DNA of 64,000 nt from Microbacterium galbinum (GTDB taxonomy: Bacteria > Actinomycetota > Actinomycetes > Actinomycetales > Microbacteriaceae), in assembly GCF_023101185.1 (NCBI RefSeq), contig NZ_CP078077.1, positions 649,630 through 713,629 on the forward strand, read 5' to 3'. The position numbers and the translations under genes were made by a program. This document shows positions 6,495-57,080 of the stretch, piece after piece (positions within the stretch are counted from its first letter, which is position 1; every line of letters begins with the position of its first letter). The notes below the pieces were generated by a model. That model saw only the letters and a program-made list of their open reading frames with translations. It did not search any database and was not told the origin of the DNA.

Positions 6495-6504
6495 GGGGCG
6501 TTCC

Positions 6505-7212
6505 TTACTTCGCGGAGGAGGGAGCGGACGCCGGGGCGTCGAGCGGGTTCGGGGTGAGCGTGTTCAAGGTGAGGGGATTCGGGGTGAGGGGATTCGGTGC
6601 ATCGTCGCGCGGATCGAGCACGACGGCGAGCGTGCGCCGGGCGAGGGCGGCGCGATCGTGCGGCGCCCACTTCACCAACGAGTGCGCGTTCATGCCGTCG
6701 ATCATCGCGAGCAGCAGCCAGGCCGCGGTCTCGGTGCGGGTCGCCGAGATCTCGCCCGAGGCGACGGCACGGGCGAGATGCGCCTCGAGGGCGCTCTGCC
6801 AGAGGTCCATCTCGGAGCGCACGCGCGCGGCGAGCGCTTCGTTGCGCGCCCCCAGCGCCCACGCCTGCACCCACACGAGGGTCACGTCGTCGCGACGGCC
6901 GTCGAGCAGCGTCTCGGTCATGTGCAGCAGGTTGTCGCGCACGGTCGCGCCGGGGTCGAACGACGCCATCACCTCGTCGCGCTCGGCCGCCACGATCTCG
7001 CCGAAGACATCGGCGAGGAAGGCGTCCATGCCCGGGCGGTAGTGCGCGACGAGAGCCGGGGTGACACCCACGCGGGCGGCGACGGCACGGAGGGTGAGAG
7101 CCTCCAGCCCGCTCTCGCGGGCGAGCCCGACGGCCCCCTCGAGGATCGAGCGGTCGCGCTCTTCGGGAGGGAGGCGCCGGGGGCCGGAGACTCTTGACGT
7201 CGTGTTCATCAC
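6505..7212 (-). CDS. TetR-family regulator of the amine cluster
   Basis: The 235-residue protein has a TetR helix-turn-helix at residues about 18-65 (ALTLRAVAARVGVTPALVAHY) and an all-helical C-terminal ligand domain. GTG 7212 and ATG 7209 are both possible starts; a -10 TACGGT lies only a few bases upstream, so the mRNA is probably leaderless or nearly so. The C-terminus carries PNPLT-type repeats made by 15-bp units. It is divergent from agmatine deiminase with an inverted repeat between them, and likely controls both directions, responding to an amine or its precursor. Confidence 0.85.
   Translation of the reverse strand: MMNTTSRVSGPRRLPPEERDRSILEGAVGLARESGLEALTLRAVAARVGVTPALVAHYRPGMDAFLADVFGEIVAAERDEVMASFDPGATVRDNLLHMTETLLDGRRDDVTLVWVQAWALGARNEALAARVRSEMDLWQSALEAHLARAVASGEISATRTETAAWLLLAMIDGMNAHSLVKWAPHDRAALARRTLAVVLDPRDDAPNPLTPNPLTLNTLTPNPLDAPASAPSSAK
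6547..6600. repeat. 15-bp tandem repeat at the 3' end of the TetR gene
   Basis: Units start at 6547, 6562, 6577 and 6592 (about 3.6 copies). They encode a repeated five-residue PNPLT-like motif in the last 30 residues of the regulator, after the folded ligand-binding domain. Confidence 0.8.
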
Positions 7213-7217
7213 CGGTT

Positions 7218-7246
7218 ACCGTAGCACCTGTTGATCGCATGTTCAA
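7218..7246 (-). promoter_or_regulatory. TetR-gene promoter overlapping an inverted-repeat operator
   Basis: On the minus strand TTGAAC (7241-7246) and TACGGT (7218-7223) are spaced 17 bases apart, ending just before the regulator's start. The -35 is one arm of the imperfect palindrome TTGATC-GCAT-GTTCAA (7231-7246). A TetR dimer there would block its own promoter and could also affect the divergent deiminase gene. The assignment is inferred from position and symmetry. Confidence 0.5.
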
Positions 7247-7273
7247 TAACCACTCCACCGCGAGGAGACACCG

Positions 7274-8332
7274 ATGGCCTGGCGCATGCCCGCAGAGACC
7301 GCACGCCACGATCGCACCTGGATGGCCTTCCCCGTCGAGGGCCAGACGCTCGGCGAGAGCGCGGCCGAACGCGACGAGGGGTACGCGACGTGGACGGCGG
7401 TGGCGCACGCGGTCGCCGAGTTCGAGCCGGTCACGATGCTGGTCGATCCGCGCGAGCTCGCGCGAGCGAGGCGGATGCTGGGAGCGGGTGTCGAGATCGT
7501 GGAGGCACCGGTCGACGAGTTCTGGATGCGCGACTCCGGACCGACCTTCGTGATCGACGACGAACGCCCCGAGGCGCTCGGCGCGGTCGACTGGATCTTC
7601 AACGGCTGGGGCGACCCGGAGTGGGCCGACTGGGCGGCGGCCGCGCAGCACGCCCGCATCATCGCACGCGGCGTCGACGCCGAGCTCGTGAGCTCGACCC
7701 TCGTGAACGAGGGCGGCGGGATCCACGTCGACGGCCAGGGCACCGTGCTGCTCACCGAGACCGTGCAGCTCGACCCGCGCCGCAATCCCTACGCCGACCG
7801 GCAGCGCGTCGAGGCCGAGATGCTGCGCACGATCGGGGCGACCAAGGCGGTCTGGCTGCCGCGCGGCCTCACTCGCGACTACGACGACTTCGGCACCAAC
7901 GGGCATGTCGACATCGTGGCGACGATCGTCTCGCCCGGGCGCCTGCTGCTGCACGCGCAGAACGATCCCGCGCACCCCGACCACGCGGTGACGCGCAAGC
8001 TGCGGGCGCACCTCGCCGAGCAGACGGATGCCGCCGGCCGCAGCTTCGAGGTGATCGATCTCCCCGCGCCCTCCACGCTGCGCGACGACGAGGGCTTCGT
8101 GGACTGGAGCTATGTCAACCATCTCGTGACGAACGACGGCGTGGTCGCCTGCGGGTTCGGAGACGAACGGGCAGATGCCGTGGCGCGCGAGATCCTCGGC
8201 GAGGCGTATCCCGGCCGACGCGTCGTGACCGTCGATGCACGACCGCTGTTCGACCGCGGGGGCGGCATCCACTGCATCACCCAGCAGCAGCCGGCGCTCG
8301 GGCAGTCCTCACCCACGGGCGCACTCGCATGA
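7274..8332 (+). CDS. aguA: Agmatine deiminase
   Basis: This 352-residue enzyme belongs to the agmatine/peptidyl-arginine deiminase family, which converts agmatine to N-carbamoylputrescine and ammonia. Family motifs are complete: WMRDSGP, NEGGGIHVDGQGT, GTNGHVD, and the catalytic cysteine near the C-terminus in GGGIHCITQQQP. GAGGAG precedes ATG 7274. Its stop overlaps the amidase start as ATGA, so the amidase is likely the next enzyme, hydrolysing the carbamoyl amide. The family also includes relatives with other guanidino substrates, so the exact substrate is inferred. Confidence 0.88.
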   Translation: MAWRMPAETARHDRTWMAFPVEGQTLGESAAERDEGYATWTAVAHAVAEFEPVTMLVDPRELARARRMLGAGVEIVEAPVDEFWMRDSGPTFVIDDERPEALGAVDWIFNGWGDPEWADWAAAAQHARIIARGVDAELVSSTLVNEGGGIHVDGQGTVLLTETVQLDPRRNPYADRQRVEAEMLRTIGATKAVWLPRGLTRDYDDFGTNGHVDIVATIVSPGRLLLHAQNDPAHPDHAVTRKLRAHLAEQTDAAGRSFEVIDLPAPSTLRDDEGFVDWSYVNHLVTNDGVVACGFGDERADAVAREILGEAYPGRRVVTVDARPLFDRGGGIHCITQQQPALGQSSPTGALA

Positions 8333-10098
8333 TCGATGTCGTCGAGGCGTCGATCGCCGACCTGCGGCGCGCCCTCGACGAGGGAGCGGCGACGGCGGTC
8401 GACCTCGTCGACGCCTATCTCGCCCGCATCGACGCCTATGACGGCCCGCGCACGCCCACCGCATTGAACGCGGTCGTCGTGCGCAACCCGGAGGCCCGTG
8501 CCGAGGCGGCGGCATCTGACGAGCGTCGGGCGCGCGGCGAGACCCTCGGCCCGCTCGACGGCATCCCCTACACGGCCAAGGACAGCTACCTCGTGCGCGG
8601 GCTCACCGCCGCCGCCGGCAGTCCGGCCTTCGCGCGGCTCGTCGCCCAGCGCGACGCGTTCACCATCGAGCGGCTGCGGGCCGGCGGGGCCATCTGCCTC
8701 GGACTCACCAACATGCCGCCGATGGCGAACGGCGGCATGCAGCGCGGGGTCTACGGACGCGCCGAGAGTCCGTACAGCGCGCAATGGCTCACCGCGCCCT
8801 TCGCCTCCGGATCGTCGAACGGCTCGGGCACCGCGACCGCCGCGAGCTTCGCCGCGTTCGGCCTGGCCGAGGAGACCTGGTCGAGCGGTCGAGGTCCGGC
8901 GACGAACAACGCCCTCTGCGCGTACACGCCCTCGCGCGGCGTGATCTCGGTGCGCGGCAACTGGCCCCTCGTGCCCACGATGGACGTCGTCGTGCCGCAC
9001 GCTCGCACGATGGCCGATCTACTCGAGGTGCTCGACATCATCGTCGCCGACGACGCCGAGACGCGCGGAGACTTCTGGCGCACGCAGCCGTGGGTGGCGA
9101 TCCCGGCCGCCTCCGCGGTGCGTCCCGCCTCCTATGCGGCGCTCGCCGCGACCGGCACGCCCACCGCGACCGGCACGCCCGCCGCGACCGGCACGCCCCC
9201 TTCCGTCCGCGCGAGCACCCTCGCCGGCATCCGGATCGGCATCCCGCGCATGTACATCGACGCCGATCCCGAGGCGGGCACCGCCGCGCACCCCGGGGTC
9301 GGCGGGCCGACCGGTCGGCGCATCGACACCCGCCCCTCGATCCTCACTCGCTGGGCGGCAGCGCGCCGCGACCTCGAGGCGGCGGGGGCGACCGTGGTCG
9401 AGGTCGACTTCCCCGTGGTGTCGAACTACGAGGGCGACCGCCCCGGCGCCCCGACGATCGCGACGCGCGGGCTCGTCTCACCCGCCTACCTGCACCGCGA
9501 GATCGTCGATCTCTCGGCGTGGGCGTGGGAGGACTTCCTGCGGGCCAACGGCGACCCCGCCCTCGACTCACTGACCGGCGTCGACGGATCCACGATCTTC
9601 CCGCACCCGGACGGCGCGCTGCCCGACCGCTACACCGGCTTCGACGACGACATTGCCGAGTACCCCGACTGGGTGCGGGCGCATCCCGGCACCGGCCCCG
9701 ACGACATGCCCGAGCTGCCCGAGGGTCTCCGCGGGCTCGAGGAGACCCGGCGCCGCGATCTCGAGCAGTGGATGGACGGCCTCGGCCTCGACGCCGTCGT
9801 CTTCCCCGCCGTCGCCGACCTCGGCGCCGCCGACATGGACGTCGATCCGGCATCCGCCGACCTCGGCTGGCGCAACGGCACCTGGATCGCGAACGGCAAC
9901 CTCGCCATCCGCCACCTCGGCATCCCGACCGTCACGGTGCCGATGGGGCTCCTCGACGACATCGGCATGCCGATCGGACTCACCTTCACCGGCCGCGCCT
10001 ACGACGACGCGCGCCTGCTGCGGCTCGCGGCGGCGTTCGAGGCATCCGGAGCACCCGGCGAGCGCCGCACGCCCCCGCCGCGCACGCCCGCACTCTGA
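8329..10098 (+). CDS. Amidase-signature family hydrolase
   Basis: The 589-residue product is an amidase-signature enzyme. The catalytic lysine is in YTAKDS, the cis-serine region is GSSNGSG and the nucleophile-serine loop is ETWSSGRGPA, giving a Ser-Ser-Lys triad. It starts by ATGA overlap with agmatine deiminase, so the two are translated together. This suggests it takes the place of the nitrilase-type N-carbamoylputrescine amidohydrolase (AguB), which is absent here. A Thr/Gly/Pro-rich insert near residues 274-291 comes from three 18-bp units at 9148-9201. It could also be a general aryl or aliphatic amidase. Confidence 0.82.
   Translation: MIDVVEASIADLRRALDEGAATAVDLVDAYLARIDAYDGPRTPTALNAVVVRNPEARAEAAASDERRARGETLGPLDGIPYTAKDSYLVRGLTAAAGSPAFARLVAQRDAFTIERLRAGGAICLGLTNMPPMANGGMQRGVYGRAESPYSAQWLTAPFASGSSNGSGTATAASFAAFGLAEETWSSGRGPATNNALCAYTPSRGVISVRGNWPLVPTMDVVVPHARTMADLLEVLDIIVADDAETRGDFWRTQPWVAIPAASAVRPASYAALAATGTPTATGTPAATGTPPSVRASTLAGIRIGIPRMYIDADPEAGTAAHPGVGGPTGRRIDTRPSILTRWAAARRDLEAAGATVVEVDFPVVSNYEGDRPGAPTIATRGLVSPAYLHREIVDLSAWAWEDFLRANGDPALDSLTGVDGSTIFPHPDGALPDRYTGFDDDIAEYPDWVRAHPGTGPDDMPELPEGLRGLEETRRRDLEQWMDGLGLDAVVFPAVADLGAADMDVDPASADLGWRNGTWIANGNLAIRHLGIPTVTVPMGLLDDIGMPIGLTFTGRAYDDARLLRLAAAFEASGAPGERRTPPPRTPAL
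9148..9201. repeat. 18-bp tandem repeat inside the amidase gene
   Basis: Three near-identical 18-bp units (9148, 9166, 9184) encode a repeated ATGTPx peptide. It lies between the catalytic core and the following conserved block, so it is probably a surface loop. Confidence 0.8.
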
Positions 10099-10131
10099 AC
10101 GGCGGACCACCGCAGGAGATAAGCGGGCCCC

Positions 10132-11625
10132 TCACTCCCAGGTGTGCACCGGCGCCCCGGCCCGGGCGAGCTCGAGGTAGTCGCGGAGCATGCCGTGCAG
10201 CGCCTCCGCCCGGGTCTGCCCCGCGCGCTCCCGCGCCGCGACGCTGCCCCGCTGCCAGGTCGCCCCGTTGCGCCCGGTCACGCAGCGCTGCTCGATGATG
10301 CCGAGGTACCGATCACGTGCCGCCGGGTCGACACCGTACGCGTCGAGCCCCTCGGCGGCCATCGGCAGCAGTCGCCGCAGCACGAGCTCGCGCGCGCCGA
10401 CCCAGCCCACCTCGGGCCAGTAGAGTCGCGCCTCGATCCCGTCGCGCGCGCCCGCCCGCAGGTTCTCGGCCGCGGCATCGAAGCTCATCTGCGTCCACAG
10501 CGGACGATCGGCCTCGGCGAGCGTGCGCACGAGACCGTAGTAGAAGGCCGTGTCGGCGAGCACGTCCACGACCGTGGGCCCCGCCGGCAGCACGCGGTTC
10601 TCGACGCGCAGGTGGGCGGTGCCGTCGACCGTGTCGTAGATGGGTCGGTTCCAGCGGTACACCGTGCCGTTGTGCATGCGCAGCTCTGCGAGGGAGGGCG
10701 CGCGGCCGGCGGCGAGTTCCGCGAAGGGGTCCTCGTCGGTGACCGCCGGCAGCAGCGCCGGGAAGTACCGTGAGTTCTCCTCGAAGAGGTCGAAGATCGA
10801 GGTGACCCAGCGCTCCCCGAACCACACGCGCGGACGCACGCCCTGATTCTTCAGCTCCTGCGAGCGGGTGTCGGTGGCCTGCTCGAACATCGGGATGCGG
10901 GTCTCGTGCCACAGCGCGCGTCCCGCGAAGAACGGGGAGTTGGCGGCGAGCGCGACCTGCACCCCGGCCATGGCCTGCGCCGCGTTCCAGTACGGCGCGA
11001 AGGAGTCCGGCTCGACCTGCAGGTGCAACTGCACCGAGGTGCAGGCGGCCTCGGGAAGGATCGTGTCGGTCACGATGTCGAGGCTCTCGCGGGGGCCGCC
11101 CGGCAGCGGTACGCCCTCCAGCTTCAGCTCGATGTCCTCCCCGCGCGCGGCGAGCACCTGCTGGCCGAGCAGGCTGTAGCGCGGATCCTCCGAGATCCAG
11201 CGCTCGGTGAAGTGGTGCTCGTCGAGGGTGGGCAGCATCCCGATCATCGCGATCGCATTGCCGGTCGCCACCTGCACCCGGGCATCCGCCTCGTCGATGG
11301 CGTTGCGCAGCGACGTCTCCAGATCGCGCGTGCGCCCTCCGCCGATCGGGCGCGGCGCGACGTTGACCTCGATGTTGAACCGACCGAGTTCGGTCTGGAA
11401 CGCGGGGCTGGCGATCGCTTCCAGCGCCGCCTCGTTGGCCATGGCCGGATCCCCCGCGGGATCGACGAGGTTGAGCTCGATCTCGAGGCCGAGCTGAGGC
11501 AACGCTCCGTCGAAGCGTCCATCGGCGAGCATCTCGGCGAGCGCGTCGAGGCACTGCTCGGTCTTGGCGCGGAACTTCGTACGGTCCTGGCGCGTGAAAC
11601 TGCGCGCGTCGATGCGGTCACCCAT
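10132..11625 (-). CDS. GCS2-family glutamate-cysteine ligase-like enzyme
   Basis: The 497-residue product resembles the GCS2/carboxylate-amine ligase family, which joins an amino acid to glutamate's gamma-carboxyl with ATP. LGLEIELNL near the N-terminus and HLRVENRVLPAGPT are typical metal and nucleotide-site blocks. Actinobacteria make mycothiol rather than glutathione, so its product may be a gamma-glutamyl compound of another kind, such as an ergothioneine or polyamine intermediate. It is convergent with the amidase and divergent from the kynurenine operon. A second, shorter member of the same superfamily lies at 31019-32176. Confidence 0.75.
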   Translation of the reverse strand: MGDRIDARSFTRQDRTKFRAKTEQCLDALAEMLADGRFDGALPQLGLEIELNLVDPAGDPAMANEAALEAIASPAFQTELGRFNIEVNVAPRPIGGGRTRDLETSLRNAIDEADARVQVATGNAIAMIGMLPTLDEHHFTERWISEDPRYSLLGQQVLAARGEDIELKLEGVPLPGGPRESLDIVTDTILPEAACTSVQLHLQVEPDSFAPYWNAAQAMAGVQVALAANSPFFAGRALWHETRIPMFEQATDTRSQELKNQGVRPRVWFGERWVTSIFDLFEENSRYFPALLPAVTDEDPFAELAAGRAPSLAELRMHNGTVYRWNRPIYDTVDGTAHLRVENRVLPAGPTVVDVLADTAFYYGLVRTLAEADRPLWTQMSFDAAAENLRAGARDGIEARLYWPEVGWVGARELVLRRLLPMAAEGLDAYGVDPAARDRYLGIIEQRCVTGRNGATWQRGSVAARERAGQTRAEALHGMLRDYLELARAGAPVHTWE

Positions 11626-33681: not shown

Positions 33682-33750
33682 TCTCGGAGATCTGCACCCA
33701 TTTCGCACGAACGCGGCCGATTCCCTGCGGGATTGCGTGAATCTCCGAGA
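33682..33750. promoter_or_regulatory. Long-loop inverted repeat between convergent genes
   Basis: TCTCGGAGAT (33682-33691) and its exact complement (33741-33750) are separated by 49 bases between the converging exporter and glycosidase genes. It may form a terminator stem or be the remnant of a palindromic repeat like those at 53107 and 55835. Confidence 0.45.
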
Positions 33751-33841
33751 CGACGCCACGGCCTCTCCCGCACGTCGGGATCGACAGGTCGGCCCGGAGA
33801 ACCGGGGCGGCGACCCGTCGATCCCGCGAGCGGGGCGACGC

Positions 33842-50674: not shown

Positions 50675-52222
50675 ATGACCGCAGGAGCCGCCGAAGAGCT
50701 CGAACAGTCGCTCGCCTCCGCACGGGAAGGCGGCGACTGGACCGGGGTGATCGGCATCCTGGGCTCTCGCTGGAGCGACCTCTATCAGGACCATCCGCAG
50801 CTGCTGATCCGCACGATCGAGTCCCTGCCCCCGGCCGTTCTCGAGGCGCATCCGCGCCTGCGCTTCGCCGAGGAGCACCTGCGCCGACGGTCGAACCGAC
50901 TTCCCGAGCGGCGGGCCTACCCCGACATCCTCTCGGACGACCCGGATGCACCGCCGCTCGACCGGCTCGCGGCCCTCACCGGCCGCATCGCGACCGCGCG
51001 CGGCGACGGACGCCTGGCCGACGCCGCCGCGTCCGCCGACCAGGCCGTGGAGACCCTGCGCGCCGTCCCCGTCGAGATGGTGCCCACCTTCGCGAACGCC
51101 CTTCCCGAGCTCCACTACCACTGGGCCGTGACATACTTCCTCGCCAGTCGGTTCGACGATGCGCTCGAGCAGTTCGCGCGCAGCTACGACTGGGCCGAGT
51201 CGGTCGACAACCGTCTCGTGCGCACCACGTCCGGGGGCGCCAGCGCCCTCATCCACGCGCTGCACGGTCGCGGGCGCGACGCGGCTCGCTGGCTCGGCCG
51301 GCTTCCGGAGGTTCCGGCCGATGCCTGGTGGGCCGCGGATGCCCCGGCCGCCGGCCGCATGGCCGATGCCGTGCTGCACATGGACCGCCTCGAGATGGAC
51401 GCCGCGCGCGGCATCCTCGACGGGATCGACATCACGCTGTCGCTCGATTTCTGGGGCCCGTACTTCGCGCTGCGCGCCTACAGCACCCCGCCGGATCGGC
51501 GCGACGAGGCCCAGGTGCTGCTGTCTGAGTTCGACTCCTTCGTCTCGGGCCTCGCCCCGGAGTACGCCCAGGTTCCCGTGAACGCCGAGTACACGGCCAT
51601 GGTGCGCTATCTGCTGCTTCTGCTGCTGCACCAGCCCGACCGCGCGGCCCGAGAACTCGGGAGCACCGCGCCCGATGCCGATGCTAGCGTCGTGGCGCAG
51701 ACCGGTACTGCTCTGCTCGCGCGCCGTCTGCTGCAGCGCGAACAGCCCGCCGCCGCACGCCGCCTGATCGCTCCTCTCCTGCAGGCGTCGAGCGCTCGAC
51801 CTCGCGTGATCATCCCGGCCCTCGTCATCGCCGCCGAGACGGGCTCGCCCTCGCAGCGCGACGACCTGTTGCAGCGCGCCGCGGCGCTCGCCACCTGGAA
51901 CGGCCTCTACTCCGCCTTCCCTTCGGCGTCGACCGCCGCACGCCGGACGCTCGCCGACCTGATCGAGGAGCGCGGCGAGCCCGGGATCGCCGACCTCCTG
52001 CGCGGGCTGTCGGAGACGACGGCCGTCGCCGGGACCGAGGCCCTCACCCGCCGTGAAGCCGCGGTCGTGGCGTCGGCCCTGGCCGGGCTCTCGAACACCG
52101 AGATCGCCGCGAAGCAGCACGTGAGCGTCAACACGGTCAAGTCGCAGCTGCGCGGCGCGTTCCGCAAGCTCGAGGTCTCGAGCCGTCAGGAGCTGATCGA
52201 GCTGTTCCAGCTCGGACGCTGA
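50675..52222 (+). CDS. LuxR-family regulator with TPR-like sensor region
   Basis: The 515-residue protein has a long helical, TPR-like region (residues about 60-430) and a C-terminal LuxR helix-turn-helix (ALTRREAAVVASALAGLSNTEIAAKQHVSVNTVKSQL, split in two motifs at about 449-485). No ATPase domain is present, so it is shorter than MalT/LAL regulators. The ligand or partner is unknown. Its stop codon lies within the first unit of a 17-bp repeat. Confidence 0.8.
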   Translation: MTAGAAEELEQSLASAREGGDWTGVIGILGSRWSDLYQDHPQLLIRTIESLPPAVLEAHPRLRFAEEHLRRRSNRLPERRAYPDILSDDPDAPPLDRLAALTGRIATARGDGRLADAAASADQAVETLRAVPVEMVPTFANALPELHYHWAVTYFLASRFDDALEQFARSYDWAESVDNRLVRTTSGGASALIHALHGRGRDAARWLGRLPEVPADAWWAADAPAAGRMADAVLHMDRLEMDAARGILDGIDITLSLDFWGPYFALRAYSTPPDRRDEAQVLLSEFDSFVSGLAPEYAQVPVNAEYTAMVRYLLLLLLHQPDRAARELGSTAPDADASVVAQTGTALLARRLLQREQPAAARRLIAPLLQASSARPRVIIPALVIAAETGSPSQRDDLLQRAAALATWNGLYSAFPSASTAARRTLADLIEERGEPGIADLLRGLSETTAVAGTEALTRREAAVVASALAGLSNTEIAAKQHVSVNTVKSQLRGAFRKLEVSSRQELIELFQLGR

Positions 52223-52298
52223 GCCGGGGCGGACGCTGAGCCGGGACGGACGCTGAGCCGGGGCGGACGCTGAGCCGGGGCAGACGCTGAGCCGGGAC
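52214..52298. repeat. 17-bp tandem repeat straddling the LuxR stop
   Basis: Five units of GGACGCTGAGCCGGG(G/A)C begin at 52214, 52231, 52248, 52265 and 52282. The first contains the Gly-Arg-stop end of the LuxR gene; the rest are noncoding. Confidence 0.9.
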
Positions 52299-52360
52299 TC
52301 AGGTGCACGGGATAGCGTCGACGGGTACGACCACCGCGATCCCCGACACCTGAGGACACG

Positions 52361-53050
52361 ATGAGCCGCATCGCCCCCGCCCTGGAAGCATCCGCCCCCG
52401 CCTACGACGGTTTCGTCGGGTGGGTGCTGAGCCTCATCGAATCGCTCGGGGAGGTGGGCGTCGGCATCGCGATCCTCATCGAGACGTTCGTGCCGCCGAT
52501 CCCCTCGGAGGCGATCCTGCCGGTCGCCGGGTTCCTCGCCTACGAGGGCCGGATGAGCGCGTGGGGCGCGTGGGCGGCGGCCACTCTCGGCGTGCTCGTC
52601 GGCGCACTGATCTGGTACGCGATCGGCGCCGCGGTCGGGCGCGACCGCACGCGTCGGATCGTCGGGCGCATCCCCCTGCTCGACTACGAGGACTTCGATA
52701 AGGCCGAGGCGTTCTTCGCCCGCTGGGGCGGCGGGGCGGTGCTCTTCGGACGCTGCGTACCGCTCGTGCGGTCGTTCATCTCGATCCCCGCGGGCATCGA
52801 GCGCATGCCGCTGTGGAAGTTCACGCTCTACACGCTGATCGGCTCGGGCATCTGGAACGCGATCTGGATCGGTCTCGGCTTCGCGTTCGGCCCGGCCATC
52901 AAGCCGGTGCTCGAGGAGTGGAGCGGGCTCATCTCGAACATCGCGGTCGGGGCGATCGCGCTGCTGGTGCTGATCTTCATCGCCGTGCGCATCCGGCGGC
53001 GGCTGCGCGAGGGCTCGACGCGACGGATGCCGCAGCCCGACGCCGAGTGA
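52361..53050 (+). CDS. DedA-family membrane protein
   Basis: The 229-residue protein has the DedA/SNARE-associated family layout: ETFVPPIPSEAILPVAGFLA with the re-entrant loop, a second half with FGRCVPLVRSFISIPAGIERM containing the conserved Arg residues, and a final membrane helix. DedA proteins flip phospholipids or lipid carriers such as undecaprenyl phosphate. It starts at ATG 52361 after the repeat. Confidence 0.9.
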   Translation: MSRIAPALEASAPAYDGFVGWVLSLIESLGEVGVGIAILIETFVPPIPSEAILPVAGFLAYEGRMSAWGAWAAATLGVLVGALIWYAIGAAVGRDRTRRIVGRIPLLDYEDFDKAEAFFARWGGGAVLFGRCVPLVRSFISIPAGIERMPLWKFTLYTLIGSGIWNAIWIGLGFAFGPAIKPVLEEWSGLISNIAVGAIALLVLIFIAVRIRRRLREGSTRRMPQPDAE

Positions 53051-53106
53051 GCCCTCCCCGAGCGACCCCTCCCGCGTGAGCCCTCCCCGAGCGACCCCTC
53101 CCCGAG

Positions 53107-53172
53107 TGCATCGATCGGTGCGAAATGTCGGTCATGGCGCCTCTTCGCCGACGTTTCGCACCGATCGATGCA
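53107..53172. terminator. Long asymmetric hairpin, dispersed repeat copy A
   Basis: A 25-base left arm (53107-53131, TGCATCGATCGGTGCGAAAT...) pairs with 53148-53172 except for one T/G wobble position, around a 16-base loop. It lies between converging DedA and DUF2277 genes, only eight bases from the DUF2277 stop. A near-identical copy lies at 55835-55899. Confidence 0.8.
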
Positions 53173-53179
53173 CGACGGG

Positions 53180-53497
53180 TCAGGCCTCGGCGGCGCGCGC
53201 GGCGCGCTTCGCGTCCTGGAACACCCGGATCGCCTCGTAGCGCTCCGCCGAGCGCGCCTGGCGCTTGGCGGCCTGCTCCTGACGGTTCTTCGGCGGCGCC
53301 GAGGTGACGAGTCCGTCGAGCAGACTCCGCACCGACCGCTCGATCTCGGCGATCGCCCGGTCGAACACCTCCTGGTTGGCTCGCGACGGAGCGTTCGTCC
53401 CCGAGATCTTGCGCACGAACTGCAGAGCGGCGTCGTGGCATTCGTCGTCGGATGCCGGGGGCTCGAGGTTGTTCAGGGGGATGATGTTGCGGCACAT
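53180..53497 (-). CDS. DUF2277 protein
   Basis: The 105-residue protein starts MCRNIIPLNNLEPPASDDE and contains ALQFVRKISGTNAPS and LVTSAPPKNR, clear signatures of DUF2277, of unknown function. ATG 53497 gives this canonical N-terminus. It stands alone and converges with dedA. Confidence 0.88.
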   Translation of the reverse strand: MCRNIIPLNNLEPPASDDECHDAALQFVRKISGTNAPSRANQEVFDRAIAEIERSVRSLLDGLVTSAPPKNRQEQAAKRQARSAERYEAIRVFQDAKRAARAAEA

Positions 53498-53612
53498 GCC
53501 AGCCAGGCTAGATCGCTGAGCGGCGGAGTCAAGGGGTGGCGGCGCGGCCACGGCATCCCGCGGATCCGACGCGCCCACCCGTTCGCACGGGTCCGCCCCT
53601 CCGAACGGGTGG

Positions 53613-54449
53613 TCAGCCGCGCGCGAGCGCCGCGAGCTCGACCCGCGACGTGGCCCCGGACTTGCGCAGCAGGTTCGAGACGTGGAACTTCACGGTGTTC
53701 TCGCTGACGCTGAGCGTGTGCGCGATCTCCCGGTTGCGTCGACCGGCGGCGATCAGCCGCAGAACGTCGCGCTCGCGAGGACTGGCGTCGATCGCGGCGG
53801 GCAGGTCGCCGGCATCCGCGGGTGGGTCGAGGGGCAGGCGGATGCCGACCTCCGACCCCCAGCCCGGCGTGGCCGACACCGAGAAGTCCCCGGCGAGGGC
53901 CGACACCTGCTCCCCGATCGAGCGCAGCGTGTCGTCGTGGGTGGTGAGGTCGCCGCGGCCGTCGTCGCGGATGCCGATGAGCAGGTTGAGGCCGTCGCAG
54001 TCCCACTGGATGCGCACGCGCCGGGTGTCGCCGCGGTCGACGATCGCCAGCACGGTGCTGCGCACGATGGCTCGTGCGGAGTGCGCGATGTCGCCGGGGA
54101 GAGCACGCCCGTTGGCGGGCGGTTCGACGAACTGCACGTCGAGCTCGCTGTACCGCACGAGTGGGCGCAGGTCTCCGCGCAGCCGTTCGAACGCCCCGGT
54201 GACCGGCTCGAGGCCCGCCCCCTGCTCGTCGTTCAGGGTGCGCAGCCCCACGAGGGCACCGGCGGCGACGTCGACCGCGATCGTGCGCGCCGCCCGGTCG
54301 TCGAGGCGGGTCGAGCGCAGCGTCGCGAGAAGGGACTCGAGCGTGAGCGCGTACCGGTCGCGCTGCTCGGCGAGCGCGCGGGAGTGGTCGGCGGTCAGGC
54401 GGCGCGACGTGGTCTGCGCGGTGCGGTCGGTGCGGTCGGTGGCGCTCAT
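53613..54449 (-). CDS. Histidine-kinase-like ATPase fused to LuxR output domain
   Basis: The 278-residue protein starts with a coiled region (about 20-60) lacking a phosphoacceptor histidine, has an HATPase-like fold (about 110-205) with the G1 box RDDGRGD and a second glycine box GWGSEVGIRLP, and ends with a LuxR helix-turn-helix (SPRERDVLRLIAAGRRNREIAHT, split over two helices). No receiver domain is present. It is divergent from the RuMP genes, 94 bases apart. It may couple nucleotide or ligand binding to promoter control of formaldehyde metabolism. ATG 54449 follows a TAGAGT -10 by ten bases. Confidence 0.72.
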   Translation of the reverse strand: MSATDRTDRTAQTTSRRLTADHSRALAEQRDRYALTLESLLATLRSTRLDDRAARTIAVDVAAGALVGLRTLNDEQGAGLEPVTGAFERLRGDLRPLVRYSELDVQFVEPPANGRALPGDIAHSARAIVRSTVLAIVDRGDTRRVRIQWDCDGLNLLIGIRDDGRGDLTTHDDTLRSIGEQVSALAGDFSVSATPGWGSEVGIRLPLDPPADAGDLPAAIDASPRERDVLRLIAAGRRNREIAHTLSVSENTVKFHVSNLLRKSGATSRVELAALARG

Positions 54450-54543
54450 GGGCACCCACTCTATCCCGCCCCCTCCTTTCGGGTAGGGGGAACGGTCCCG
54501 AGGCAGGAGCGCCCCACGGTCGGATGCTGGCGAGGCTGGGTAC

Positions 54544-55125
54544 ATGCCCCTCACCGCCACCATCTCCCCGGGAGCGGCGATCTCCCTCGTCGCCAACGAG
54601 CTCCTGCACGCCGCCGAGCGCACAAGCGTCGCGAACGCACGACAGCTCGACGACCTCGCCGCCCTCCTCACCGACGCCGACCGCGTCTTCGTGATGGGCG
54701 CGGGCCGCTCGGGACTCGCGCTGCGCATGACGGCGATGCGCCTCATGCACCTGGGCCTCGAGGTGCACGTGGTGGGCGACACCACCACTCCCGCCATCGC
54801 GGCGGGCGACGTGCTGCTCACCGCGAGCGGCTCGGGCACCACGGAATCCATCGTGCGCGCGGCCACCCGCGCCTCCGAGATCGGCGCACGCGTCGGCGTG
54901 ATCACCACCGCCGAGTCGTCGCCCCTCTCCGACCTCGCCGACGTGCGCGTGCGGGTGCCCGCGGCTCAGAAGCTCGACCGCAGCGCCGAGGCATCCGCTC
55001 AGTACGCGGGCGGCCTGTTCGAGCAGATCGTCGTCGTGATCGGCGACGGGCTCTTCCACGCGCTCTGGCAGCGCCAGGGATCGAGCGCCGACGAGCTGTG
55101 GCCGCGGCACGCGAACCTCGAGTGA
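54544..55125 (+). CDS. hxlB: 6-phospho-3-hexuloisomerase
   Basis: The 193-residue SIS-domain isomerase (FVMGAGRSGLALRM, LTASGSGTTES) converts hexulose-6-phosphate made by HxlA to fructose-6-phosphate, the second step of the RuMP route. It is followed by hxlA after 50 bases. In non-methylotrophs the pair detoxifies formaldehyde or supplies ribose-5-phosphate in reverse. Confidence 0.9.
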   Translation: MPLTATISPGAAISLVANELLHAAERTSVANARQLDDLAALLTDADRVFVMGAGRSGLALRMTAMRLMHLGLEVHVVGDTTTPAIAAGDVLLTASGSGTTESIVRAATRASEIGARVGVITTAESSPLSDLADVRVRVPAAQKLDRSAEASAQYAGGLFEQIVVVIGDGLFHALWQRQGSSADELWPRHANLE

Positions 55126-55175
55126 CCCGCACCGCCCCTCACCCCTCGAACCATCCCCAGAAGAACGGAACACCC

Positions 55176-55799
55176 ATGAAGCTGCAGTTCGCCATCGACA
55201 CCCTCAGCACCGAGAAGGCCCTGGAGCTGGCCGCGGCCGCCGCGGCGCACGTCGACATCCTCGAGCTCGGCACGCCCCTCATCAAGAGCGAGGGCCTGTC
55301 GGCGATCACCGCGCTCAAGGAGGCGCACCCCGACAAGGTGATCTTCGCCGACCTCAAGACGATGGATGCCGGTGAGCTCGAGGCCGACATCGCTTTCGGC
55401 GCGGGCGCCGACCTCGTGACCGTGCTCGGCGCCGCCGACGACAGCACCATCGCCGGTGCCGTCAAGGCCGCGAAGAAGCACGGCAAGGGCATCGTCGTCG
55501 ACCTGATCGGCGTCGCCGACAAGGCCGCCCGCGCCCAGCAGGTCATCGGCCTCGGCGCGGAGTTCGTCGAGATGCACGCCGGCCTCGACGAGCAGGCGCA
55601 GGAGGGCTACTCCCTCGACAGCCTCCTCACCGACGGCGCGGCATCCGGCGTCGCGTTCTCGGTCGCGGGTGGCGTGAATGCGTCGAGCATCGCCGCGGTG
55701 CAGGCATCCGGCGCGCAGGTCGCCGTCGCCGGCAGCGCGATCTACAGCGCCGACAACGTCGGCGACGCGGCGGCAGCGCTGCGCGCGGCGATCGTCTGA
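55176..55799 (+). CDS. hxlA: 3-hexulose-6-phosphate synthase
   Basis: The 207-residue barrel enzyme joins formaldehyde to ribulose-5-phosphate. ELGTPLIKSEG, IFADLKTMDAGELEA with the catalytic Asp/Lys pair, EMHAGLDEQ and FSVAGGVN are hallmark motifs of the orotidine-decarboxylase-like HPS family. With hxlB it forms a full formaldehyde-fixing module. A dispersed hairpin follows its stop. Confidence 0.92.
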   Translation: MKLQFAIDTLSTEKALELAAAAAAHVDILELGTPLIKSEGLSAITALKEAHPDKVIFADLKTMDAGELEADIAFGAGADLVTVLGAADDSTIAGAVKAAKKHGKGIVVDLIGVADKAARAQQVIGLGAEFVEMHAGLDEQAQEGYSLDSLLTDGAASGVAFSVAGGVNASSIAAVQASGAQVAVAGSAIYSADNVGDAAAALRAAIV

Positions 55800-55834
55800 C
55801 GGTCTCCCCACCCCTCGCGCGCCCTCTTGCGAGC

Positions 55835-55899
55835 GCATCGATCGGTGCGAAATGTCGACTTCCAGTCCCCAGAATCGACGTTTCGCACCGATCGATGCA
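55835..55899. terminator. Long asymmetric hairpin, dispersed repeat copy B
   Basis: Arms 55835-55858 and 55876-55899 pair over 24 bases around a 17-base loop. Both arms match those at 53107-53172, including the single T (left) opposite G at the same position. It lies between converging hxlA and the flavin oxidoreductase. Confidence 0.8.
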
Positions 55900-55905
55900 T
55901 TTCCG

Positions 55906-55983
55906 GATGCCGTCGGGTCAAGAAACAGCGAGCGGATGCCGTCGGGCCTCGAAACAGCGAGCGGATGCCGCCGGGCCTCGACG
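55906..55983. repeat. 29-bp tandem repeat after the hairpin
   Basis: GGATGCCGTCGGGTC-AAGAAACAGCGAGC-type units start at 55906, 55935 and 55964 (about 2.7 copies), ending at the stop of the flavin oxidoreductase gene. Confidence 0.8.
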
Positions 55984-55991
55984 TGCGCGCG

Positions 55992-57080
55992 TCAGGCCTC
56001 CGAGCGCGACTCCTCGAGCGACGGGTAGTCGGTGTAGCCCTCCGCGGTCGAACCGTAGAACAGCTCGGGACGGGGCTCGTTGAGCTCGGCCCGCGTGCGC
56101 CAACGCTCGACGAGGTCGGGGTTGGCGATCACGGGGCGCCCGGCGGCGACGGCATCCGCCCAACCCTCGTCGACGAGCTCCACGGCCTCCTCACGGGTGG
56201 TCGGGGTCGCGAAACCGGAGTTGACGATGAGCGGGGCCTTCGACGCCGCCCGGATCGCCTGCACCAGATCGGCGCGCGGGTCGGCGTTGAGCACGTCGAC
56301 GAACGCGAGTCCGAGGGCGGCGAGACCGTTCGCGACGGCGGTGTAGGTCGCCCGCACGTCGGCATCGTCCTCTTCGAGCACGCCCTGGATGTTGTGCTGG
56401 GGAGAGAGACGGATGCCGGTGCGCTCCGCGCCCACCGCCGCCGCGACGGCGCGGGTCACCTCGACGGCGAAGCGCGCACGGTTCTCGGGGGATCCACCGT
56501 AGGAGTCGTCGCGGACGTTCGACACCGGCGAGAGGAACTCGTGCACGAGGTAGCCGTTGGCGCCGTGCACCTCGACCCCGTCGAAGCCGGCCGCGATCGC
56601 GTTGCGCGCCGCCTGGGCGAACTGCTCGATCACCACGGGGATCTCGTCGAGGGTCAGCGCGTGCGCGACGGGCAGGTCGACCTTGCCCTCGGGCGTGCGG
56701 GTCTGGCCCGGAGCGGCGAGTGCACTGGGGCCGACGACACGGTCCTCGCCCGAGATGAGCGGGTGCGAGACGCGTCCTCCGTGCATGAGCTGCATGACGA
56801 TCGTCCCCCCGGCCGCGTGCACGGCGTCGGCGACCCGACGCCAGCCCTCGATCTGGGCGGGGGTGACGATGCCCGGCTGACCGGGGTACGACTTGCCCTC
56901 GGCCGCGGGCCACACACCCTCACTGATGATCAGGCCCTGGCCCGCGCGCTGGCGGTAGTACTCCACCATCGTGTCGGTGGGCACGCCGGCGTCGTCTGCG
57001 CGCGTGCGGGTCAGCGGCGCCATGACGACGCGGTTGGACAGGTTCAGGGCACCGAAGACGGCGGGATCGAAAAGACTCAC
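55992..57080 (-). CDS. Old Yellow Enzyme-family alkene reductase
   Basis: The 362-residue FMN barrel enzyme has NRVVMAPLTRTRA at the start, MQLMHGGRVSHP, DGVEVHGANGYLVHEFLSP and SYGGSPENRARF, classic NADH:flavin oxidoreductase motifs of the OYE class. It reduces activated C=C bonds. GTG 57080 gives the usual MSLFDP-type start; the upstream extension is Arg-rich and unlikely. Confidence 0.88.
   Translation of the reverse strand: MSLFDPAVFGALNLSNRVVMAPLTRTRADDAGVPTDTMVEYYRQRAGQGLIISEGVWPAAEGKSYPGQPGIVTPAQIEGWRRVADAVHAAGGTIVMQLMHGGRVSHPLISGEDRVVGPSALAAPGQTRTPEGKVDLPVAHALTLDEIPVVIEQFAQAARNAIAAGFDGVEVHGANGYLVHEFLSPVSNVRDDSYGGSPENRARFAVEVTRAVAAAVGAERTGIRLSPQHNIQGVLEEDDADVRATYTAVANGLAALGLAFVDVLNADPRADLVQAIRAASKAPLIVNSGFATPTTREEAVELVDEGWADAVAAGRPVIANPDLVERWRTRAELNEPRPELFYGSTAEGYTDYPSLEESRSEA

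Follow-up and report, generated by a model that had tools for sequence, protein, structure and literature searches.

Stable symmetric hairpins just behind stop codons characterise the bidirectional or U-tract-free terminators of GC-rich bacteria, which are enriched between convergent genes and keep their sites while their sequence changes. Other palindromes, such as the matS, parS and SlmA sites, are restricted to one part of the chromosome, and REPs mobilised by RAYT carry a short head motif, GTAG or GTGG, at the REP foot. According to PMC1525189, REP sequences span 21–65 bases, and REPs and REPINs are short palindromic extragenic repeats that often lie between convergent genes. REPs usually exceed 100 per genome (PMC2817692). 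The DNA uptake sequence (DUS) dialects of Neisseriaceae combine species-specific outer bases with a short common core (PMC3630211). The listings and abstract openings returned by our literature search gave no account of repeats such as those described here in Microbacterium or Microbacteriaceae.

The window analysed, a stretch of 64,000 nucleotides of Microbacterium galbinum (contig NZ_CP078077.1, positions 649,630–713,629), contains two long hairpins, whose arms lie at 53106–53131/53148–53173 and 55835–55858/55875–55898 and are 96% complementary, in agreement with the original prediction made for this DNA. Both are near-perfect, unstranded 64-bp palindromes (copy 1, 53108–53171, with a perfect outer extension to 53106–53173; copy 2, 55835–55898) and belong to a family of 64-bp palindromic intergenic repeats that is REP-like in the broad sense. 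Copy 1 is flanked by convergent genes, with the stop of a plus-strand gene for a DedA/VTT-domain membrane protein (52361–53050; Pfam PF09335, E 5.5e-20) 57 bp before it and the end of a minus-strand DUF2277 protein gene (53180–53497; Pfam PF10041, E 2.3e-33) 8 bp after it. Copy 2 likewise lies between convergent genes, 35 bp behind hxlA, encoding 3-hexulose-6-phosphate synthase on the plus strand (55176–55799; NCBIfam TIGR03128, 241.8 bits, cut-off 200), and 93 bp before the end of a minus-strand NADH:flavin (FMN) oxidoreductase gene (55992–57080; Pfam PF00724, E 2.9e-78); upstream of hxlA is plus-strand hxlB, encoding 6-phospho-3-hexuloisomerase (54544–55125; NCBIfam TIGR03127, 233.5 bits, cut-off 160). 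On both strands the two copies give RNA folds of −45.6 to −51.2 kcal/mol with z-scores of −8.5 to −10.2 (0 of 200 shuffles as good). An Rfam search of positions 52000–57000 placed no family on the hairpins, its one match lying elsewhere, inside hxlA on the minus strand, below the gathering score.

The arm recurs across the genome, with 14 forward and 19 reverse matches at ≤3 mismatches and 0 for a reversed control pattern, and a covariance model derived from 17 copies retrieved 19 full copies from the source genome (G000), all of them intergenic and 18 of them with constant arm spacing. These 19 intergenic 64-bp copies have the attributes of REP sequences in the broad sense (repetitive, palindromic, extragenic, 21–65 bases), and the predicted repeated, structured, intergenic family was found both genome-wide and in a second strain (G261), where the full-element sequences of copies 1 and 2 are identical. 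Arms are conserved above loops, as had been proposed (0.86 versus 0.56 within the genome), and the apparent loop is itself decayed palindrome, complete at 1513980 (GGTTCTGAGC and GCTCAGAACC), the central bases being the least conserved portion of the repeat. A centre of the form TGTCG-N18-CGACG, exact in 15 of the 19 copies, lies without strand assignment at 53126–53153 in copy 1 and at 55853–55880 in copy 2. Two further expectations, a conserved T/G asymmetry giving the element polarity and a common orientation of its copies, failed: across the 19 copies the pair reads T-A in 10, T-G in 4, its reverse C-A likewise in 4 and C-G in 1, and both orientations are thus equally frequent (4 T-G versus 4 C-A), so polarity of the element is rejected. 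The inverted repeat at 33682–33750, which had been suggested as a decayed relative, was also rejected as kin, since, aligned without gaps, it agrees with the family consensus at 27/64 positions at best, a value equal to the median for stretches taken at random from the window, and the family model finds no match there at E ≤ 10; a general model (R2) matches weakly a little farther on, at 33775–33827 (E 0.075).

The likeliest role of the repeat, and one we consider probable, is that of a bidirectional 3′-end hairpin, either a terminator or a 3′-end shield. All copies but one (18/19) lie 3′ of at least one gene, the exception at 1660149 being in a divergent spacer. Placement between convergent genes holds for both window copies but not as a rule, as it applies to only 7 of the 19, with 11 in tandem spacers and 1 in a divergent spacer; compared with 344 sampled spacers (48 convergent, 198 tandem and 98 divergent), copies show a convergent excess (p 0.011) and a divergent lack (p 0.015). 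A systematic sample of palindromes from G000 contained 0 of 37 within genes and 0 in divergent spacers (p 4e-6), and this genome shows the pattern expected of a bidirectional 3′-end hairpin, namely position 3′ of genes with avoidance of divergent spacers. In the corresponding sample from a second species (G169), 6 of 27 palindromes are genic, while 3 of the other 21 occupy divergent spacers (lack, p 0.09) and 8 occupy convergent ones (excess, p 0.004). Positions are also retained while sequences change: immediately after the hxlA stop, a palindrome scoring at least 16 is present in 44 of 80 relatives, compared with a background of 1.35% for a 140-bp window, with largely different sequences, and in the sister strain the spacer corresponding to the copy at 993009 has a palindrome unrelated to it. 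At the 900079 spacer, the repeat is present in G000 only among 28 comparable loci of 30 fetched.

In RNA of either strand, each copy would fold into a very stable hairpin just past the stop codon, which may stop or shield message 3′ ends by acting as a bidirectional terminator or as a barrier to 3′–5′ exonucleases, and fresh copies landing in 3′ spacers may be tolerated or retained for this 3′-end role. Such retention would account for unrelated palindromes replacing one another in the same spacer. The family shares with the bidirectional terminators of GC-rich bacteria a stable symmetric hairpin behind stops, convergent enrichment and a site kept while its sequence changes, but differs from them in lacking a U-tract, in being dispersed within a species and in having arms longer than a terminator needs. 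A scan of 52800–56200 for canonical intrinsic terminators (GC-rich stem with an immediate U run) returned 0 terminator-like sites, and the T run behind the inner stem comprises three T in most copies of the source genome and mostly four to six in G218. The original view that the element is not a simple terminator therefore stands with respect to the lack of a U-tract site and to dispersal, which is unlike simple terminators, but not with respect to location, which is typical of 3′-end hairpins both among the 18 copies and at the hxlA site.

RNA-level selection within the species is not evident, since compensatory change among 17 aligned copies is not in excess (79.8% paired versus 80.9% in shuffles) and, in tandem spacers (11 copies), the transcribed strand shows no preference for G-U over A-C (18 versus 21). 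Between the two strains, paired double changes were seen twice (1513980 and 1531933) and one-sided changes in the copies at 844208, 997531 and 1037006. The absence of a covariation excess within the genome is expected of decay from a palindromic ancestor, and is consistent with a rival reading in which the family is a non-autonomous mobile repeat (MITE or REPIN-like) without host function, with 3′ spacers as harmless landing places and hairpin strength as a by-product of palindromic ends. This reading, which we regard as rather unlikely, is also favoured by the low conservation of the central bases, by arms common within a species and by presence/absence differences between the strains, 12 copies being common to both and 6 found in one only; against it, five junctions of the two-strain comparison showed no constant target-site duplication (1660149 has a direct repeat of 10 bp, the rest nothing clear), a search that covered Y1_Tnp gave no autonomous partner, and other palindromes recur in the same orthologous spacers, suggesting that the position is used. 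Mobilisation by a RAYT partner, as in REPs or REPINs, was not supported: no RAYT-type Y1 transposase (Y1_Tnp, PF01797) was found at E ≤ 0.01 in any of 10 Microbacterium genomes, that of the window included, while 6 of 14 control genomes were positive. Besides this difference, the family departs from REPs and REPINs in being a single 64-bp symmetric palindrome in 19 copies, far from the usual REP numbers, and in its confinement to the origin half of G000. Carriage by phages or plasmids was rejected: the searches gave a single weak match for each, covering 31% and 30% of the query, respectively, and an 18-mer search of viral contigs yielded none. The copying step might be transposition, conversion or replication-linked duplication.

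A 5-kb block in G261 carrying a siderophore-uptake operon (SIP, ABC ATPase, two FecCD permeases and a binding protein) lies between two copies of the repeat where G000 has one, as would be expected of a recombination or cassette site (attC-like) bounding exchangeable gene blocks. We consider such a site highly improbable: this is a single case, homologous deletion between two repeats would have the same outcome, and at the remaining copies compared, the strains differ in the repeat and a short stretch of adjacent DNA rather than in genes. Palindromes of other Microbacterium species have a centre similar to that of copy 1 (YGYCG-N18-CGRCR), with arms that are particular to each species and common to its copies. 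Arm identity within genomes is 0.86 in G000 (17 copies), 0.92 in G218 (12 copies) and 0.90 in G169 (6 copies), with arms less alike in G034 (0.64), while between genomes identity is 0.435 for arms and 0.78 for the centre in a comparison using 42 of the 57 rows from genomes other than G000. In palindromes listed with no test for the core, this centre occurs in only 1 of 30 even palindromes from 80 named loci and in 4 of 16 from the G000 sample. Outside the genus, model R2 matched 113 of 396 genomes, representing 42 of 109 genera, a result that counts as a lead since the model was run without a shuffled control. The pattern of a short common core with species dialects around it resembles that of DUS, but the idea of a DNA-uptake-type dialect sequence whose inverted copies act as terminators is scarcely credible given 19 copies, about two orders of magnitude fewer than the thousands of DUS per genome given in PMC3630211, and given that half-sites hardly ever occur singly: among 100 of 110 places listed, one exact 14-base half-site (2406566) lies away from full copies.

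All 19 copies lie no farther from dnaA than 0.42 of a half-chromosome, a confinement that a terminator role leaves unexplained. In the G000 sample, repeated palindromes of several families number 25 in the origin half and 0 in the other, whereas the G169 sample shows no clear origin bias (5 versus 3). Of 29 sites with model matches at E ≤ 0.01 in ten further Microbacterium genomes, 22 fall in the origin half; in G169 these matches alone lean that way (8 of 10). Spacers are equally numerous in the two halves of G000 (172 each), convergent ones numbering 30 against 18, and GC skew near dnaA is weak and mixed. A disturbed zone was rejected as the explanation of the bias, as genes in the zone are co-oriented with replication no less often (0.70 versus 0.64). 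The palindromic form of the repeat and its limitation to one part of the chromosome are shared with matS, parS and SlmA sites, and a DNA-level, protein-bound site organising the origin-side chromosome (like parS, Noc, SlmA or matS sites) would fit the position of all copies, their two inverted arms at a single spacing and the model matches in other genomes. The repeat is, however, much longer than such sites and inconstant between strains, copies being gained or lost; palindromes in G169 generally show little zoning, and in G000 several unrelated palindrome families occupy the same zone, which is therefore no property of the 64-bp sequence. Such a protein-bound site thus appears improbable.

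In G000, several unrelated families of repeated palindromes, among them the 64-bp element, TTCGACARGCTCAG, GAGGAGTCACGACACGCCG-like and GAGGAGATCTCGC, are found almost only on the origin side, and single palindromes are not so restricted; in the sample, exact copies of TTCGACARGCTCAG reach 2.37 Mb. It is possible, though doubtful, that a position-dependent process rules where palindromic repeats arise or survive, and that the palindromes of the genus are mobile 3′-end hairpins drifting together within each species. Such a process could exclude repeats near the terminus, or could be a copying mechanism linked to multifork replication or to gene dosage.

Palindromic repeats that lack a RAYT partner raise the question of how they are multiplied and kept alike within a species, and the family described here offers a tractable case, with few copies, a fixed geometry, presence differences between strains, and a similar centre with changing arms elsewhere in the genus. 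Should origin-side confinement hold generally, it would add a new rule on where bacterial chromosomes can harbour repeats; otherwise, the family remains a record of fast replacement of 3′-end hairpins at fixed sites.

Both hairpins in the window are present as originally described, copy 1 at 53108–53171 and copy 2 at 55835–55898, although each proved to be a 64-bp near-palindrome over its whole length and not merely two arms around a free loop. The genome under study (G000) is a single contig of 3,458,159 bp, in which the window occupies bases 649,630–713,629. A genome-wide pattern search allowing up to three mismatches gave 14 forward and 19 reverse matches to the arm and none to a reversed control pattern, and a covariance model built from 17 copies added 1536632 and 1537338 (copies are named by genome position), giving 19 full copies in total. 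The alignment of the 17 copies is gapless, so that in every one of them the two arms start 45 bp from each other, a spacing that 1537338 also fits; one extra base occurs only in 1536632, the weakest copy. Because copy 1513980 is palindromic right up to its centre (GGTTCTGAGC and GCTCAGAACC on the two sides), the variable "loop" represents the central part, now decayed, of what was palindromic throughout. The exact centre (TGTCG-N18-CGACG in the two window copies) is found in 15 of the 19 copies in this genome, and the arm is indeed more conserved than the loop (identity 0.86 vs 0.56, 17 copies). The T/G pair, by contrast with the original prediction of a conserved asymmetry conferring polarity, is T-A in 10 copies, T-G in 4, C-A in 4 and C-G in 1, both orientations thus being equally frequent, an outcome named in advance as refuting the polarity claim. 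Convergent placement applies to the two window copies but not overall, with 7 of the 19 copies convergent, 11 tandem and 1 divergent according to a home-made codon-usage gene caller, and the inverted repeat at 33682–33750, proposed as a decayed relative, is unrelated to the 64-bp repeat. Each window hairpin adjoins a two-copy tandem duplication of a 29-nt unit, to the left of copy 1 (53043–53100, units 97% alike) and to the right of copy 2 (55904–55961, 90%), the units of the two duplications being seemingly unrelated to each other.

All 19 copies lie within 583,957–1,673,409, none of them farther from dnaA (1,312,362) than 0.42 of a half-chromosome. Systematic sampling of G000 (40 stretches of 20 kb; palindrome score ≥18) yielded 37 palindromes, 25 of which have an 11-mer in common with another sampled palindrome and 12 of which are unique. 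The repeated palindromes are all in the origin half (25 vs 0 distal), while the unique ones are split 4 origin vs 8 distal and the spacers are equal at 172 per half. One family, with arm TTCGACARGCTCAG, accounts for most of the 25; its 14-mer, with one base left open, occurs 64 times in the sampled origin half vs 3 times in the distal half, exact copies being spread between 290 kb and 2.37 Mb. This family, larger than that of the 64-bp repeat and with its arm also written CTTCGACARGCTCAG(S)GACCC, has at least 139 forward and at least 105 reverse matches genome-wide with up to one mismatch (e.g. loci L217 and L214). A circular-shift test, which respects clustering, was less extreme (2 of 39 shifts as low), so that the evidence amounts to one contiguous zone in one place and not to 25 independent events. 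Identical sampling of another genus genome, G169 (dnaA at 3,624,502), showed no clear bias in repeated palindromes (5 vs 3). Model matches at E ≤0.01 fall in the origin half in 8/10 cases in G169 and 14/19 in nine further genomes with dnaA mapped (combined 22/29, p 0.004; p 0.03 without G169), a count that leaves out three single-contig genomes with matches (G093, G114 and G248) and uses a rounded length for G138. This species therefore shows strong origin-side confinement, which may or may not be a general rule.

At the same threshold, the model has matches in 46 of 295 genus genomes, two of them of this species. Inspected loci of the other genomes carry palindromes of ~40–90 bp with arms different from that of the 64-bp repeat. 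In alignment A3, all 35 sequences have G.CG and CG.C at a fixed distance from the centre, but 31 were chosen because they resembled the first model and fitted the core, and the centre conservation and high covariation are thus partly by construction. Less dependent on selection is the finding that arms are shared among the copies of a species. Arm identities, based on 42 of 57 rows (those with an odd centre or a core mismatch were removed), are 0.86 within G000, 0.92 within G218, 0.90 within G169, 0.96 for two G024 copies and only 0.64 in G034, compared with 0.435 between genomes. The palindrome scan of the G000 sample, which involved no core test, revealed a second family that matches the 64-bp repeat in both its centre and the offset of that centre: the motif (YGYCG-N18-CGRCR) is at offset 9 in 4 of 16 even palindromes, three of them of this family, and the only other offset with the motif counts 2. 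A (GAGG)GGTCRNGACACGCCG-like palindromic family has the centre geometry of the 64-bp element (L205 14113, L210 19163, L212 17093, L017 3301–3360). The second family of G169 (ATTGGTGC..GTTCTC) is close to the G000 type, its rows having failed the core test and been left out of the arm comparison.

Comparison with G261, classed as the same species (flanks mostly 96–99% identical, some stretches 93–95%), showed 12 of the 19 copies to be orthologous, with both window copies identical over the whole element. Six are absent from G261 (796332, 900079, 993009, 1529797, 1644589 and 1660149), the junction at 1529797 being known from alignment coordinates only; 1559803 is in neither count, and three G261 copies lack a clear G000 partner (1997438, 2047505 and 2503852). 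At 1644589 one outer arm is still present in G261, so this copy looks to have been lost there; G000 also has a short duplication beside this hairpin that G261 lacks. The 993009 spacer of G261 holds an unrelated palindrome, and extra DNA at 1660149 is flanked by a 10-bp direct repeat. Two copies, 1513980 and 1531933, show a both-sided base-pair change between strains (T-A to C-G), other copies having changed on one side only, and the 17 aligned copies show no more compensatory change than shuffles do (79.8% vs 80.9% paired), which lends no support to selection at the level of RNA. In locus L195 of G261 (6500–11580), two repeat copies enclose an operon of 5 kb for siderophore uptake (SIP, ABC ATPase, two FecCD permeases and a binding protein), where G000 has a single copy. 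An 85-bp palindrome, GTACCCAACTCAGGAA.., in which an inner stretch does not pair, occurs in both strains (L019 4606–4690, L175 1928–2012).

Palindromes of the G000 sample are all intergenic (37/37), with none in divergent spacers, compared with 98 of 344 spacers being divergent. By the home-made gene caller, 6 of the 27 in the G169 sample are genic, and of the other 21, 3 are divergent and 8 convergent. Copy 2 adjoins the 3' end of hxlA, whose product has Microbacterium sp. APC 3901 (97%) as best-scoring named relative and, by its neighbours, places the genome in Microbacterium. A palindrome of score ≥16 follows the hxlA stop codon in 44 of 80 relatives (the best 80 of 338, near-duplicates included) vs 1.35% of random 140-bp windows, with widely different sequences among relatives; Curtobacterium has its own repeated version, GACGGACGGGAGG... 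There, GACGGACGGGAGGCRCGGTGCCAG or close variants occur at this site in L058, L060, L063, L066, L072, L073, L083 and L101, and the palindrome recurs within the same 10 kb in some loci. The query for the 900079 spacer matched in 133 of 295 genomes; in the 28 comparable loci of 30 fetched, this spacer is 9–225 bp of mostly unrelated sequence, with the 64-bp repeat in G000 only; many of these loci lack palindromes scoring ≥12, and G117 and G185 have one resembling, by eye, the second G000 family.

At some sites, then, position is conserved and sequence is not, the pattern to be expected of 3'-end hairpins; elsewhere no hairpin is required. The element would act in the manner of a bidirectional terminator or a stabiliser of 3' ends, from which it departs in the U-tract, none being found at the two window copies, which makes factor-independent termination of the classic kind doubtful; 3'-end protection is as likely as termination free of a U-run. 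By the broad definition of REP sequences given in PMC1525189 the element qualifies, but it is not one of the RAYT-served REPs, and Y1_Tnp was absent from all 10 genomes searched. In its species dialects around a similar centre the family resembles the uptake-sequence dialects described in PMC3630211; copy number argues against an uptake role. The repeat most likely acts as a 3'-end hairpin.
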